Of a DNA stretch of 64,000 nucleotides, positions 31,367-36,624 are shown in pieces. A model generated the notes under the pieces. The model saw only the letters and a program-made list of their open reading frames with translations, was not told where the DNA came from and did no database searches. The number at the start of each line of letters is the position of its first letter. Positions within the stretch are counted from its first letter, which is position 1. The stretch is from Alphaproteobacteria bacterium (lineage in GTDB: Bacteria; Pseudomonadota; Alphaproteobacteria; Caulobacterales; Hyphomonadaceae). The position numbers and the translations under genes are program-made. The DNA lies in assembly GCA_018222605.1 (NCBI GenBank), contig JAAEZZ010000009.1:150682-214681 (forward strand). Reading direction: 5' to 3'.

Positions 31367-33361
31367 TCAGGCAGGCGTTAGCCACGCATTTTCCGCGATT
31401 TTCACGACATCCCCCATGATCTCCGTAATCCTGAAATCTTTGGGTGTGTAGACGCGGGCAATGCCCATTTGCTTCAGCGCCATGGCATCTTCCGGCGGGA
31501 TGATGCCGCCAATGATGACCGGCACATCGTCGAGGCCCAGCTTGCGAAGTTCTGCCAGTGTTTCACGCGCCAGGTCCAGATGGCTGCCGGAGAGAACCGA
31601 CAGGCCAACAACATGGGCCTTGGCCACTTTGGCTTGCTCTGCAATCTCTGCAGGCGTGAAGCGGATCCCCTCATAGACGACATCCATGCCGACTTCCCGT
31701 CCGCGCGCCGCAATCTGTTCCGAGCCGTTGGAGTGTCCATCCAGGCCCGGCTTGCCGACCACATAGGTCAGGCGGCGGCCCAGCGCTTCGGACACCCGGT
31801 CGACTTCCTTGCGGACGGCATCAATGTCTTCGCCGACATCGCCGCGCGCAATCGTGGCGACGCCGGTTGGGGCGCGATACTCACCGAACACTTCGCGCAT
31901 CACATGGCCCCACTCGCCGGTTGTGACCCCGGCTTTGGCGCAGGAGATGGACGGCTCCATGATGTTGCTGCCATCGCTCGCGGCCTTGCGAAGGCCCTCC
32001 AGGGCGGCATCGACCGCGGCTTGGTCGCGGGATTTGCGCCATTCCTTCAGGTCGCGCACCTGGGCGGCCTCTTCTGCCGGATCGACCGTCTGGATGGAGC
32101 CCTCACCAGCGCCCAGCGGGCTTGCCTCGGATTCAGTGTAGCGGTTCACGCCCACGACGGTCAGGTCACCGCTCTCGATCGCCTTGATGCGGTCGATATG
32201 CGCGCCGACAAGGCTCTCCTTCATATAGTCGATGGATTGTGTCGCGCCGCCGCGCGCATCAATGTCGGCCAGTGTTTTGCGGGCCAGTTCTTTCAGCTCA
32301 TCGGTCTTGGACTCGATCACATGGCTGCCATCGAAGATGTCTTCATATTCCAGCAGGTCTGTCTCATAGGCCAAAATCTGCTGCAGGCGCAGAGACCATT
32401 GCTGGTCCCATGGGCGCGGCAGACCAAGGGCCTCATTCCAGGCAGGCAATTGCAGCGCGCGGCAGCGGGCCTTCTTGGACAGCGTTACGGCCAGCGACTC
32501 GATCAGGATGCGGTAGACATTGTTCTCTGGCTGCGGCTCTGTCAGGCCCAGCGAGTTCACTTGGACGCCATAGCGGAACAGCAGCGCCTTGGGATCGGTC
32601 ACGCCATAGCGCTTGCGACCAATCTCTTCCCAGAGTTCCACAAAAGCACGCATTTTGCAGAGTTCTGTAACGAAACGCACGCCTGCGTTCACGAAGAAGG
32701 AAATGCGTCCGAAGACGGTTTCAAAGTCTGATTCCGGAACTTGTCCGCCAGCTTTCACCGTATCCAATACAGAAATCGCGGTCGCCAGCGCATAGGCGAG
32801 TTCCTGTTCCGGCGTTGCGCCCGCTTCCTGCAAATGGTAGGAGCAGACATTCATCGGATTCCATTTGGGAACTTCCGTATAGCACCAGCTCACCATGTCA
32901 GAGATCAGGCGCAGGCTCGGTTCTGGCGGGAACACATAGGTGCCGCGGGAGAGATACTCCTTCACGATGTCGTTCTGCGTCGTGCCGCGCAGTTCCTTGC
33001 GGTCATCGCCGCGCTCATCGGCCAGTGCCACATACAGCGCCAGCATCCAGGCGGCCGGCGCGTTGATCGTCATGGAGGTGTTCATTTCCTCCAGCGGCAA
33101 ATCAGCCATCAGCGCGCGCATATCGCCCAGATGCTTTACCGGCACACCGACCTTGCCGACTTCGCCGCGCGACAGCACATGATCGGCATCATAGGCCGTC
33201 TGGGTCGGCAGATCGAAGGCGATCGACAGGCCGGTCTGGCCTTTCGCCAGATTGCCGCGATACAACGCGTTCGATTTCTCTGCAGTAGAGTGCCCGGCAT
33301 AGGTGCGGAAAATCCACGGCCGGTCTGGCTTGTGCTGATATGATTTATCCATGTCTGCCAC
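31367..33361 (-). CDS. ecm: ethylmalonyl-CoA mutase
   Basis: 664 residues. This B12-dependent mutase of the ethylmalonyl-CoA pathway converts (2R)-ethylmalonyl-CoA to methylsuccinyl-CoA. The N-terminal 'FRTYAGHSTAEKSNALYRGNLAKGQTGLS' is the Ecm version of the mutase signature (methylmalonyl-CoA mutase has 'QYAGF'). The C-terminal B12-binding domain has 'GKPGLDGHSNGSEQIA' (DxHxxG) and 'SVLSGSH'. The length matches Ecm and not the longer MutB. The start is GTG 33361 with GGGAG six bases ahead; ATG 33352 is less well placed. ccr, the preceding pathway enzyme, is about 2 kb away. Confidence 0.93.
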   Translation of the reverse strand: MADMDKSYQHKPDRPWIFRTYAGHSTAEKSNALYRGNLAKGQTGLSIAFDLPTQTAYDADHVLSRGEVGKVGVPVKHLGDMRALMADLPLEEMNTSMTINAPAAWMLALYVALADERGDDRKELRGTTQNDIVKEYLSRGTYVFPPEPSLRLISDMVSWCYTEVPKWNPMNVCSYHLQEAGATPEQELAYALATAISVLDTVKAGGQVPESDFETVFGRISFFVNAGVRFVTELCKMRAFVELWEEIGRKRYGVTDPKALLFRYGVQVNSLGLTEPQPENNVYRILIESLAVTLSKKARCRALQLPAWNEALGLPRPWDQQWSLRLQQILAYETDLLEYEDIFDGSHVIESKTDELKELARKTLADIDARGGATQSIDYMKESLVGAHIDRIKAIESGDLTVVGVNRYTESEASPLGAGEGSIQTVDPAEEAAQVRDLKEWRKSRDQAAVDAALEGLRKAASDGSNIMEPSISCAKAGVTTGEWGHVMREVFGEYRAPTGVATIARGDVGEDIDAVRKEVDRVSEALGRRLTYVVGKPGLDGHSNGSEQIAARGREVGMDVVYEGIRFTPAEIAEQAKVAKAHVVGLSVLSGSHLDLARETLAELRKLGLDDVPVIIGGIIPPEDAMALKQMGIARVYTPKDFRITEIMGDVVKIAENAWLTPA

Positions 33362-33378: not shown

Positions 33379-33395
33379 ATGTTGCGCTGCAACAT
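33379..33395 (-). promoter_or_regulatory. dyad ATGTTGC-GCT-GCAACAT upstream of ecm
   Basis: A perfect 7-bp inverted repeat with a 3-base centre, 18 bases before the ecm start codon. Its reverse complement shares the 12-base core TGCAGCGCAACA with the site between dat and ccr, so one regulator may bind both. Confidence 0.55.
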
Positions 33396-33473
33396 GCCGC
33401 GTGAGACGTAACAAGGCAAGCATTCCGTGCTTGCCGCTGCCCGCCTGAACAACCACATGACCTGAAACAGGAA

Positions 33474-34007
33474 ATGAATGTGATACAGTCTTCTTCTCCC
33501 CTCAAGACCGTTCTGATCTTGCGGCTCATTGCCCTGCTGGCTTTCCCGGCGGGCGTCGTTCTGGCCGCCATATTGGAACGCAGCGCGCTGATGGTGGTGG
33601 TGCTGGCCCTCGGCATGCTCGGGGTCAGCTGGGTGGAAAGATTGCGCCTTATCCACCTTGCGGGAAATGACGATCGGCCTGATTTTTCAGGACTTTTACC
33701 TGGCCTTGCCTGGCGCACCGGCTTGCTGGCGGGCGTCTTTATTCTCAGCCTCGGCATCCTAGCCCTGTTCCGGGATGTGTCATTGGCGCGCGGATTGGGC
33801 CTTACGGATATGGTCCTTCTGCTTGCTGCAGCAGGTGTTGCGCTTGCCGCAAACCGGGTCAGCGCATCTATTGCGGGGCGCGAGATGGAAGGAGCTCTGG
33901 CGCAGGTTAATGCGGCGTTTGGTACCAGCAGTGCGAACGATAATTCCGGTCGTGGCCAGTCTGGAAATGGCGACATCATCGAAGGTGAAGTCATCGACCG
34001 CGATTGA
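33474..34007 (+). CDS. membrane protein of unknown function
   Basis: 177 residues with four hydrophobic segments: about 11-33, 37-55, 80-100 and 110-125. A short acidic, Gly/Ser-rich tail ('GQSGNGDIIEGEVIDRD') follows. No family recognised. It diverges from ecm; the dyad upstream of ecm also lies about 80 bases before its start, so it could share that regulation. The SemiSWEET gene follows after 65 bases. Confidence 0.65.
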   Translation: MNVIQSSSPLKTVLILRLIALLAFPAGVVLAAILERSALMVVVLALGMLGVSWVERLRLIHLAGNDDRPDFSGLLPGLAWRTGLLAGVFILSLGILALFRDVSLARGLGLTDMVLLLAAAGVALAANRVSASIAGREMEGALAQVNAAFGTSSANDNSGRGQSGNGDIIEGEVIDRD

Positions 34008-34072
34008 ATTCCGGCATTTTACCGCTACCACACATCAGCTACGTTTCATCCGACTTTGCGGAGATACAGGAT

Positions 34073-34375
34073 ATGTCTGACTCTATCGGCCTTATGGCTG
34101 CAGCCCTGACAACATTGTCTTTCCTGCCGCAGGCTTTGCTTGTGATCCGTACGCGTCAAACCAGGGGCATTTCGCTGATCATGTACATCATGTTCACGAC
34201 CGGCGTCGCGGCATGGCTGGTCTATGGCATCATGGAGCAATCCCTGCCGATGATCCTGGCCAATTCCGTCACCTTGGTACTTGCCATGATCATCCTCGGC
34301 CTGAAGGTCTGGCACTCGCTTCAGGCCAGAACCCAGGGCGCGACAGAGTCCACATCTGCGCCAATCGCCTCGTAA
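34073..34375 (+). CDS. SemiSWEET-type sugar transporter
   Basis: 100 residues from ATG 34073. It has three membrane helices in the PQ-loop/MtN3 pattern: 'IGLMAAALTTLSFLPQALLVIRTRQTRGISLIMYIMFTTGVAAWLVYGIMEQSLPMILANSVTLVLAMIILGLK'. The 'SFLPQ' proline-glutamine turn and the 'WLVYGI' helix are diagnostic. SemiSWEETs dimerise to carry sugars across the inner membrane; the sugar is unknown. The last 55 bases overlap the end of the convergent aminotransferase gene. Confidence 0.9.
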   Translation: MSDSIGLMAAALTTLSFLPQALLVIRTRQTRGISLIMYIMFTTGVAAWLVYGIMEQSLPMILANSVTLVLAMIILGLKVWHSLQARTQGATESTSAPIAS

Positions 34376-35205
34376 TAGGCCTTCTGCACCTTGCGGGTGA
34401 CGGGCCCAGGCTTGCCCATGCCGATGGGTTGCCCTTCCAGCATGATGACGGGCGCGATCATTGCTCCGGCAGATGTCGTGAAAACTTCCGCTGCGTTCAG
34501 GGCCTCGTCCGGCGTGAAGGCGCGCTCTTCTATCTTGAGCCCGGTCTTTTCAGTCAGGTGCAGAACGCCTGAGCGGGTGATGCCGGGTAAAATATCCGTG
34601 GAAAGATTGCGCGTAATCAGGCGCCCGGTGTTATCAACAATCCAGGCGTTGGCCGAGGCGGCCTCTGTCACCTTGCTGTCCTGCACCAGAAAGGCCGTGT
34701 CTGCGCCAGCCTGTTTGGCCGCGCGATAGGCGAGGGCCTGCGACAGCAATTGCACCGTCTTCATATCGCGCCGGGCCCAGCGAGTATCATGCATGAAGAT
34801 CGCGGCGATGCCGTGTTCGGCCGCTTGACCGATCAGTGGCTTGGCATCTGCATACAGGAAGACTGTCGGCTCGAACTTTTCCGGCCCGGCAAAGTCGCGT
34901 GCCTCATAGGCGCCGCCCGTGACCTGCAAATAGACGAGCCCCTCGCGGATGCCATTGGCGTCGATTAGTTCCTGATGGATGCGGGCCCAGTCTGCATCGC
35001 TGTGTGGATTGGGTAGTGCGATGCCTTCCAGGGTGCGTGCCAGACGCTGCAGGTGGCCGTCCAGATCCACGAATGTGCCATCATAGACCGCGGTCACTTC
35101 ATAGGCGGCATGGGCAAACAGAAAGCCTCTGTCGAGCGGAGAAATACGGGCCTCGGAGAACGGCACGATCTGGCCGTTAAGATGCACCTGATCGCCTATT
35201 GGCAT
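34321..35205 (-). CDS. dat: D-amino-acid aminotransferase (fold-type IV PLP enzyme)
   Basis: 294 residues from ATG 35205 (MPIGDQVHLNG). GGGAGG lies ten bases ahead of it; the other ATG at 35214 would leave only one base. The long track ORF is an upstream artefact. It is a class IV PLP transaminase: 'SPLDRGFLFAHAAYEVTAVYDG' at the N-terminus, the PLP lysine region 'RRDMKTVQLLSQALAYRAAKQ' and 'EVFTTSAGAMIAPVI'. D-alanine aminotransferases supply D-glutamate for peptidoglycan, although branched-chain relatives look alike. It diverges from ccr. Confidence 0.85.
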   Translation of the reverse strand: MPIGDQVHLNGQIVPFSEARISPLDRGFLFAHAAYEVTAVYDGTFVDLDGHLQRLARTLEGIALPNPHSDADWARIHQELIDANGIREGLVYLQVTGGAYEARDFAGPEKFEPTVFLYADAKPLIGQAAEHGIAAIFMHDTRWARRDMKTVQLLSQALAYRAAKQAGADTAFLVQDSKVTEAASANAWIVDNTGRLITRNLSTDILPGITRSGVLHLTEKTGLKIEERAFTPDEALNAAEVFTTSAGAMIAPVIMLEGQPIGMGKPGPVTRKVQKAYYEAIGADVDSVAPWVLA

Positions 35206-35230
35206 ATTTGCCATGCCTCCCTGTAAAGAA

Positions 35231-35246
35231 TTGTGCAGCGCAACAA
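35231..35246 (+). promoter_or_regulatory. TTGTGC-AGC-GCAACAA dyad between dat and ccr
   Basis: An imperfect inverted repeat in the 162-base divergent region. It shares the 12-base core TGCAGCGCAACA with the dyad upstream of ecm, so it is a candidate site for a common regulator of ethylmalonyl-CoA genes. Confidence 0.55.
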
Positions 35247-35367
35247 ACATCTTGCAAGCGAACCGCCGAGCGGCCAAGGTGGCGCGAGCCGAGAGATTTG
35301 TGAAGCCACTCCGATAAGTGCGCTCGCAGCAATTTGGCAGATACAATTGGAGGAGGGCACCCCGATT

Positions 35368-36624
35368 ATGGCGAGGGAAGTTAAGGATATTTATGAGGTA
35401 GGTGAGATTCCGCCGGAGTTTCACGTACCCAAATTCATGCACGCCTGGGCAATTCGCCGCGAGCGTCATGGCCGCCCGTCAACGGCGATGCAAATGGAGC
35501 AGGTTCCGGTTCCGGAGATCGATTCCGACGAAGTGCTTGTGCTCGTGATGGCCGCAGGTGTGAACTATAATGGCATCTGGGCTGCCCTTGGCGAGCCGGT
35601 GTCTGTTTTTGACGTTCACAAACAGGATTTCCACGTTGCCGGCTCTGACGCCGCAGGCATTGTCTGGGCCGTTGGCCGCAAGGTAACGCGCGTGAAGCCG
35701 GGCGATGAAGTCGTCATCCACTGTAACCAGGATGATGGCGATGATGAGGAATGCAATGGCGGCGATCCGATGTTCTCGCCCAGCCAGCGTATCTGGGGCT
35801 ATGAGACGCCGGATGGCTCTTTCGCGCAATTCTGCCGCGTTCAGGCCCGTCAGTGCATGCCGCGCCCGAAACACCTGACCTGGGAAGAAAGCGCCTGCTA
35901 CACGCTGACACTCGCCACCGCATACCGCATGCTGTTCGGCCACCGTCCGCACATCGTGAAACCGGCCGACAATGTGCTGGTCTGGGGCGCGTCTGGCGGC
36001 CTGGGCAGTTTTGGCGTTCAGCTCTGTGCGGTCACCGGGGCGAACGCGATCGGCGTCGTGTCCAGTGACGACAAGAAGGATCATGTGCTCAGTCTTGGCG
36101 CCAAGGGCGTGCTGAACCGGAAGGATTTCAATTGCTGGGGCCAGCTGCCCACGGTAAACGGTCCAGAATTCAAGGATTACATGCGCGAGAGCCGCAAATT
36201 CGGCAAGGCGATTTGGGAGATCACCGGCAACAAGGATGTCGACATCGTGTTCGAACATCCCGGCGAGTCGACTTTTCCGGTGTCTGTCTTTGTCGTGAAG
36301 CGCGGTGGCATGGTTGTGATCTGTGCCGGGACAACCGGCTTCAACCTGACCATGGATGCGCGTTTCCTGTGGATGCGCCAGAAGCGCGTTCAGGGCAGCC
36401 ACTTCGCAAACCTGAAACAGGCCTCTGCGGCGAATGATCTGGTCATCAACCGCCGGATTGACCCCGGCATGTCGGAAGTCTTCCCATGGGCAGACATTCC
36501 GGCTGCGCATGACAAGATGCTGGATAACAAGCACTTGCCAGGCAACATGGCTGTTCTGGTGACCTCGCCGAAGCCGGGCCTGCGCACGGTGGAAGACATT
36601 CTGGCCGTCAGCGGTCAGGGCTGA
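35368..36624 (+). CDS. ccr: crotonyl-CoA carboxylase/reductase
   Basis: 418 residues from ATG 35368 (MAREVKDIYEVGE), with GGAGGAGGG upstream. The track start 135 bases earlier is not needed. It is an MDR-family enzyme that carboxylates and reduces crotonyl-CoA to ethylmalonyl-CoA with NADPH. 'AAGVNYNGIWAALGEPV', 'IWGYETPDGSFAQF' and 'VQGSHFANL' match the CO2-binding and substrate regions of Ccr, and 'VWGASGGLGSFGVQLC' is the NADPH motif. It is followed closely by a SnoaL-like gene (13 bases). Confidence 0.95.
   Translation: MAREVKDIYEVGEIPPEFHVPKFMHAWAIRRERHGRPSTAMQMEQVPVPEIDSDEVLVLVMAAGVNYNGIWAALGEPVSVFDVHKQDFHVAGSDAAGIVWAVGRKVTRVKPGDEVVIHCNQDDGDDEECNGGDPMFSPSQRIWGYETPDGSFAQFCRVQARQCMPRPKHLTWEESACYTLTLATAYRMLFGHRPHIVKPADNVLVWGASGGLGSFGVQLCAVTGANAIGVVSSDDKKDHVLSLGAKGVLNRKDFNCWGQLPTVNGPEFKDYMRESRKFGKAIWEITGNKDVDIVFEHPGESTFPVSVFVVKRGGMVVICAGTTGFNLTMDARFLWMRQKRVQGSHFANLKQASAANDLVINRRIDPGMSEVFPWADIPAAHDKMLDNKHLPGNMAVLVTSPKPGLRTVEDILAVSGQG

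Follow-up and report, generated by a model that had tools for sequence, protein, structure and literature searches.

The occurrence of two similar inverted repeats beside ecm and ccr, both of which encode enzymes of the ethylmalonyl-CoA pathway, raises the question of whether they constitute a single operator and, if so, which regulator recognizes it. We have investigated the repeats in the window (the whole 64-kb stretch of DNA analysed, C10:150682-214681) and in the genome (3.70 Mb on 16 contigs) using whole-genome pattern searches and inspection of single stretches. Both sequences are present and share a 12-base core on opposite strands, as a preliminary description of this DNA had stated; the coordinates given there hold for the first dyad (33379-33395), while the second, given as 35231-35246, was one base short and is better delimited as 35230-35246. 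The genes and dyads concerned are as follows.

31367..33361, minus strand: ecm, B12-dependent mutase of ethylmalonyl-CoA mutase type, 664 aa, with its start ~17 bp from the operator
33379..33395, no strand assigned: ecm operator, ATGTTGC-GCT-GCAACAT, a perfect 7-3-7 dyad of predicted PhaR-box type (TGC-N3-GCA core)
34321..35214, minus strand: dat-type class IV aminotransferase (Aminotran_4), divergent from ccr and starting 16 bp from the operator
35230..35246, no strand assigned: ccr (and possibly dat) operator, ATTGTGC-AGC-GCAACAA, predicted PhaR-box type
35368..36624, plus strand: ccr, crotonyl-CoA carboxylase/reductase, 418 aa (TIGR01751, 632 bits), start ~120 bp from the operator

The ecm product is a B12-dependent acyl-CoA mutase; the genome has a separate gene pair of methylmalonyl-CoA-mutase type on contig C3, from which ecm is distinct. 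The name ecm was assigned on the basis of this distinctness and of the gene's adjacency to ccr in many genomes; it also leans on what we take to be Ecm/MeaA-type sequence features. As the dat start lies only 16 bp from the 35230-35246 operator, dat is possibly under its control as well.

The shared 12-mer, TGCAGCGCAACA, occurs at exactly two places in the window, 33380-33391 on the minus strand and 35234-35245 on the plus strand. This repeat is unremarkable alone, as 864 different 12-mers recur within the 64 kb and the number of matches to TGCAGCGCAACA at ≤2 mismatches in the window, 11, equals the shuffle expectation (11.3), and it was rejected as sole evidence for an operator. Taken at this level, the data would also suit two unrelated copies of a 12-mer with no regulatory meaning. 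The genome-wide distribution of the motif argues otherwise. A first genome search with TTGTTGCGNTGCAACAW at ≤2 mismatches returned 10 rows and the reversed control none, and the same pattern matches directly upstream of an acyl-CoA dehydrogenase gene (mcd) located on the same contig as ecm and ccr. The mcd protein aligns over nearly its full length with PDB 6es9 (labelled acyl-CoA dehydrogenase, E 3e-218), which we take to be the methylsuccinyl-CoA dehydrogenase of Paracoccus. Its best matches also include 8ciw, which is named (2S)-methylsuccinyl-CoA dehydrogenase. The half-sites seen at ecm, ccr, mcd and phaR were combined into a symmetric pattern, WTKKTGCNNNGCAMMAW, which has 12 exact sites in the genome compared with 0 in the reversed control and, at ≤1 mismatch, 38 compared with 7. 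Since the pattern was defined on these four sites, their match in one genome is not independent evidence, whereas the sites at the phasin gene, mmgR, phaZ and the thiolase gene played no part in the definition and their recovery is therefore an independent test. The sites at ecm, ccr and mcd are all exact. Sites outside the window include the following.

C6:36305, exact site: phaB-phaR intergenic region, before phaR
C15:19843, exact site: before the phasin gene
C13:96779, exact site: ~20 nt before a match to the MmgR sRNA (Rfam RF00519, 50.3 bits)
C9:108285, one-mismatch site: 17 bp upstream of the PHB depolymerase gene phaZ
C4:132768, one-mismatch site: before a thiolase gene
C9:64651, one-mismatch site: 65 bp upstream of malate dehydrogenase
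C9, about 157970, one-mismatch site: 39 bp upstream of a gene for a 100-aa protein (MFDLWLTPWRATLSL...) with no Pfam/NCBIfam match

Malate lies close to the point at which carbon leaves the ethylmalonyl-CoA pathway. In the same pattern search, six exact sites adjoin genes without an obvious PHB role, namely a UrcA-like/AMP nucleosidase-like location, a phosphonate-type ABC/RpiR location, a sigma-factor gene, a TonB receptor/glycosyltransferase pair, a 60-aa ORF and tRNA-Val; several intragenic one-mismatch sites were set aside as likely chance occurrences. Of the further pathway genes checked in the genome, neither mcl-mch nor the mutase pair on C3 has a site, and a regulon covering the complete pathway was rejected on this account. 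The preliminary description had proposed one operator common to ethylmalonyl-CoA pathway genes and had named absence from every other pathway gene, or a random scatter, as outcomes that would speak against it; what was found is a site at mcd and 12 exact occurrences against none in the control. The proposal thus stands, with its extension to further pathway genes borne out at mcd and not at mcl-mch.

Conservation was followed in 19 genomes of the Hyphomonas-type genus, in which the nearest isolate by name is Hyphomonas oceanitis (ccr 94% identical) and two MAGs are nearer. The site is observed in 19/19 genomes upstream of ecm (15 exact, 4 with one mismatch), of ccr (18 exact, 1 with one mismatch) and of mcd (14 exact, 5 with one mismatch), and is less constant upstream of phaR, where 12/19 genomes carry it at ≤1 mismatch. 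In an operator-centred alignment of the 19 genomes, conservation reaches ≥85% in 86% of the columns specified by the operator compared with 0–10% of the flanking columns, the sites forming a conserved island within diverged flanks. Exact sites total 143 across the genus compared with 3 in the reversed control. The operator pair is thus confirmed by the genome-wide behaviour of the symmetric pattern, by its 19/19 conservation and by the conserved island. Chance, with two meaningless 12-mer copies, is refuted already by conservation at three genes and by the 12 sites against 0 in the control, and we assign it practically no weight.

The company that the motif keeps points to PhaR as its cognate regulator. 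PhaR (AniA), a regulator that senses the storage polymer PHB, is encoded once in the genome (TIGR01848 equivalog, 154 bits against a 109-bit cut-off; PF07879 and PF05233). Published PhaR motifs comprise the binding sequence of Rhodobacter sphaeroides and Paracoccus denitrificans PhaR, CTGCNNNGCAG, as cited second-hand in PMC12542648, the Sinorhizobium meliloti motif WNWDDNYGCRNYGCRNHHWNW (PMC12542648) and the Bradyrhizobium diazoefficiens motif NGCN3GC[GA]N3 (PMC12542648 and PMC10888616, cited jointly for published PhaR motifs). Their TGC-N3-GCA core is present at both the ecm and ccr sites; relative to the S. meliloti 21-mer consensus, the ecm site has 1 mismatch and the ccr site 2. In addition, the S. 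meliloti phaZ site GTTTGTTGCGCTGCACAAGAA, which is EMSA-verified for PhaR and was scored 'Efficient' (PMC12542648), has its first 18 bases in common, without interruption, with the ccr operator read on the minus strand. In S. meliloti, PhaR control of phasin, phaZ and mmgR is proven (PMC12542648), and each of these has a site here. Judged by this resemblance, the motif is very probably a PhaR (AniA) box, a TGC-N3-GCA core with AT arms, and the dyads at ecm and ccr are candidate PhaR sites.

Regulators already associated with this pathway were weighed against PhaR, as the ecm, ccr and mcd sites could belong to the ScfR family (RamB, PccR) or to a TetR-type CcrR, the likeness to a PhaR box being coincidental or an overlap. 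One ScfR protein is encoded, at C14:445574, and P. denitrificans RamB senses CoA esters of the ethylmalonyl-CoA pathway (PMC10370305), a property that would suit such a regulator. The same type of 17-bp motif is, however, found at phasin, phaZ, phaR and mmgR; RamB recognizes a pair of near-identical boxes separated by an 18-bp spacer (PMC10370305) compared with one 7-3-7 dyad per promoter here, and the ScfR gene has no such site alongside. ScfR, RamB and PccR were rejected as the binder on motif architecture and gene neighbourhood, and the reading as a whole is highly improbable. This agrees with the preliminary description, which did not recognize the motif as of RamB or PccR type: the sole ScfR-family protein is encoded elsewhere.

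Sites of this type extend beyond the genus. Among 80 named ccr loci listed, 71 of them non-Hyphomonas, the 350 bp upstream of ccr contain a site at ≤1 mismatch in 22/71 of the listed non-Hyphomonas loci compared with 0.3 in dinucleotide shuffles; upstream of ecm, sites are found in 17/55 loci at ≤1 mismatch (0.27 in shuffles) and in 39/55 at ≤2 mismatches (2.5 in shuffles), all three counts being drawn from loci related to one another and so not representing independent trials. In 33 of these loci the ecm and ccr starts are divergent and within 600 bp, often with the dyad between them, an arrangement in which a single dyad could serve both genes. In Hyphomonas, dat and two small genes separate ecm and ccr and each promoter has its own site; among the loci compared, dat adjoins ccr only in Hyphomonas-type loci and in one close relative. 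Methylocystis-type loci have no site at ccr, and two Methylobacterium ccr loci have a best site with 2 mismatches. Four ecm-carrying genomes from other families of the order have sites with 1–2 mismatches before ecm, and no site was detected upstream of mcd orthologues outside the genus, including those of these four genomes. This distribution is compatible with an ancestral role, widespread among Alphaproteobacteria, of PHB-titrated PhaR in regulating the ethylmalonyl-CoA pathway. PhaR would act through a dyad between divergent ecm and ccr, kept at both promoters where other genes lie between the two in Hyphomonas, and the capacity for acetyl-CoA assimilation would be set by the amount of polymer in store in addition to a CoA ester; we give this proposal an even chance.

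The position of the operators relative to the putative promoters bears on how PhaR would act. The promoter elements, each inferred from the 19-genome alignment, are as follows.

33391..33396, minus strand: putative ecm -10, CATGTT, overlapping the left operator arm and placed by its spacing to the conserved CTTG(C/T) in 19 genomes
33415..33420, minus strand: putative ecm -35, CTTGCC, with CTTG invariant and at a fixed distance from the operator in 19 genomes
35251..35256, plus strand: putative ccr -35, CTTGCA, 4 bp downstream of the operator, with CTTGC conserved 3–5 bp past the operator in 19 aligned genomes

A generic sigma-70 promoter scan detected nothing at these operator promoters and the hexamers therefore rest on conservation only. 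At ecm, the CTTG(C/T) conserved at a fixed distance in the 19 genomes would place the -10 element on the left operator arm. In the 19-genome alignment of ccr and mcd, a CTTGC or TGAC(A/T)/ACTCG-type element follows within a few bases of the operator's end, and at mcd a TATA-like -10 lies about 17 bases beyond the -35-like element.

We consider it probable, with good confidence, that PhaR binds the ecm, ccr and mcd sites, most likely repressing these genes until PHB titrates PhaR away. PhaR would recognize the TGC-N3-GCA core of these three sites just as it does at phasin, phaZ and mmgR; in some species it also acts on its own gene. With little PHB in the cell, PhaR would repress ecm, ccr and mcd, the operator over the putative -10 blocking RNA polymerase at ecm and the operators at ccr and mcd lying just upstream of the putative -35. 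PHB and ethylmalonyl-CoA routes diverge at 3-hydroxybutyryl-CoA/crotonyl-CoA, and abundant PHB would therefore let carbon drain by way of Ccr, Ecm and Mcd. An excess of acetyl-CoA would lead to PHB granules that titrate PhaR away, and phasin, depolymerase and the crotonyl-CoA-draining ethylmalonyl-CoA enzymes would then be derepressed together. Since mcl-mch and the C3 mutase pair are without a site, control would fall on the enzymes leading from crotonyl-CoA to mesaconyl-CoA. PhaR binding to the motif and its titration by PHB are carried over here from other species, repression by PhaR and relief by PHB being described for the S. meliloti phasin and depolymerase genes (PMC12542648). For the present organism we infer the binding, its repressive sign and the physiological logic. 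Speaking against this reading are the less constant site at phaR, the six exact sites beside genes of no evident PHB function, the mismatches to the S. meliloti consensus, and the lack of a site at mcl-mch, at the C3 mutase pair, at mcd orthologues outside the genus and at ccr in Methylocystis-type loci.

PhaR could also bind with another sign or another target, activating ccr and mcd or using 35230-35246 mainly for dat. The ccr and mcd operators end a few bases before the putative -35, a position that activators also use, and rhizobial PhaR targets are both repressed and activated (PMC12542648, PMC10888616); the 35230-35246 dyad, furthermore, is 16 bp from the dat start compared with ~120 bp from that of ccr. 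Most proven PhaR target sites nevertheless mediate repression, repressing sites occur on both sides of the -35 in S. meliloti phasin promoters (PMC12542648), and ecm-ccr dyads persist outside Hyphomonas-type loci although dat is not beside ccr there. We regard activation or a main role at dat as rather unlikely, and repression of ecm, ccr and mcd by PhaR as the preferred reading.

The S. meliloti PhaR/AniA regulon resembles the one predicted here in its TGC-N3-GCA dyad with AT-rich arms, in its phasin, phaZ and mmgR sites and in extending into central carbon metabolism, but its central-metabolism targets differ, being gltA, ppdK, pdh, bkd, zwf and others, and the text of PMC12542648 makes no mention of ethylmalonyl, ccr or bhbA. 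R. sphaeroides and P. denitrificans PhaR share the core and spacing in CTGCNNNGCAG; this PhaR is known as a phasin repressor, and ecm, ccr and mcd are not reported as its targets in the literature covered. PhaR of Methylorubrum extorquens AM1, which uses the ethylmalonyl-CoA pathway, likewise alters acetyl-CoA flux partitioning, but no pathway-gene operator is described (PMC6520949). P. denitrificans RamB also governs acetyl-CoA assimilation and answers to ethylmalonyl-CoA intermediates, but differs in being of the ScfR family and in placing its two spaced boxes at the glyoxylate-cycle operon (PMC10370305). The motif and its regulator are already known, and ethylmalonyl-CoA genes as PhaR targets are the apparently new part. 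No description of PhaR control of these genes was found in the open-access literature; subscription papers and regulon databases lay outside this search and an earlier report is possible. Such a link would be welcome rather than shocking, given that PhaR already affects acetyl-CoA flux in M. extorquens (PMC6520949).

What the analysis shows directly is that the sites exist and are conserved, that their motif recurs across the PHB regulon and that PhaR is encoded in the genome. One acetoacetyl-CoA/3-hydroxybutyryl-CoA pool feeds both PHB synthesis and the ethylmalonyl-CoA pathway. The split of flux between storage and assimilation in Alphaproteobacteria is poorly explained, and PHB-sensor operators on ecm, ccr and mcd would offer a simple, testable answer. 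If this is correct, carbon storage in Hyphomonas, and perhaps in many Alphaproteobacteria besides, would be coupled through PhaR sites to a major route of acetate assimilation. The operators also name the bases to mutate for steering acetate carbon toward or away from bioplastic.

Two further observations concern the wider set of sites. With a PhaR-type site upstream of MmgR, the connection between PhaR and MmgR known from S. meliloti reaches into Hyphomonas-type genomes. The 100-aa protein on C9 (MFDLWLTPWRATLSL...) is a candidate unannotated PHB-granule protein.
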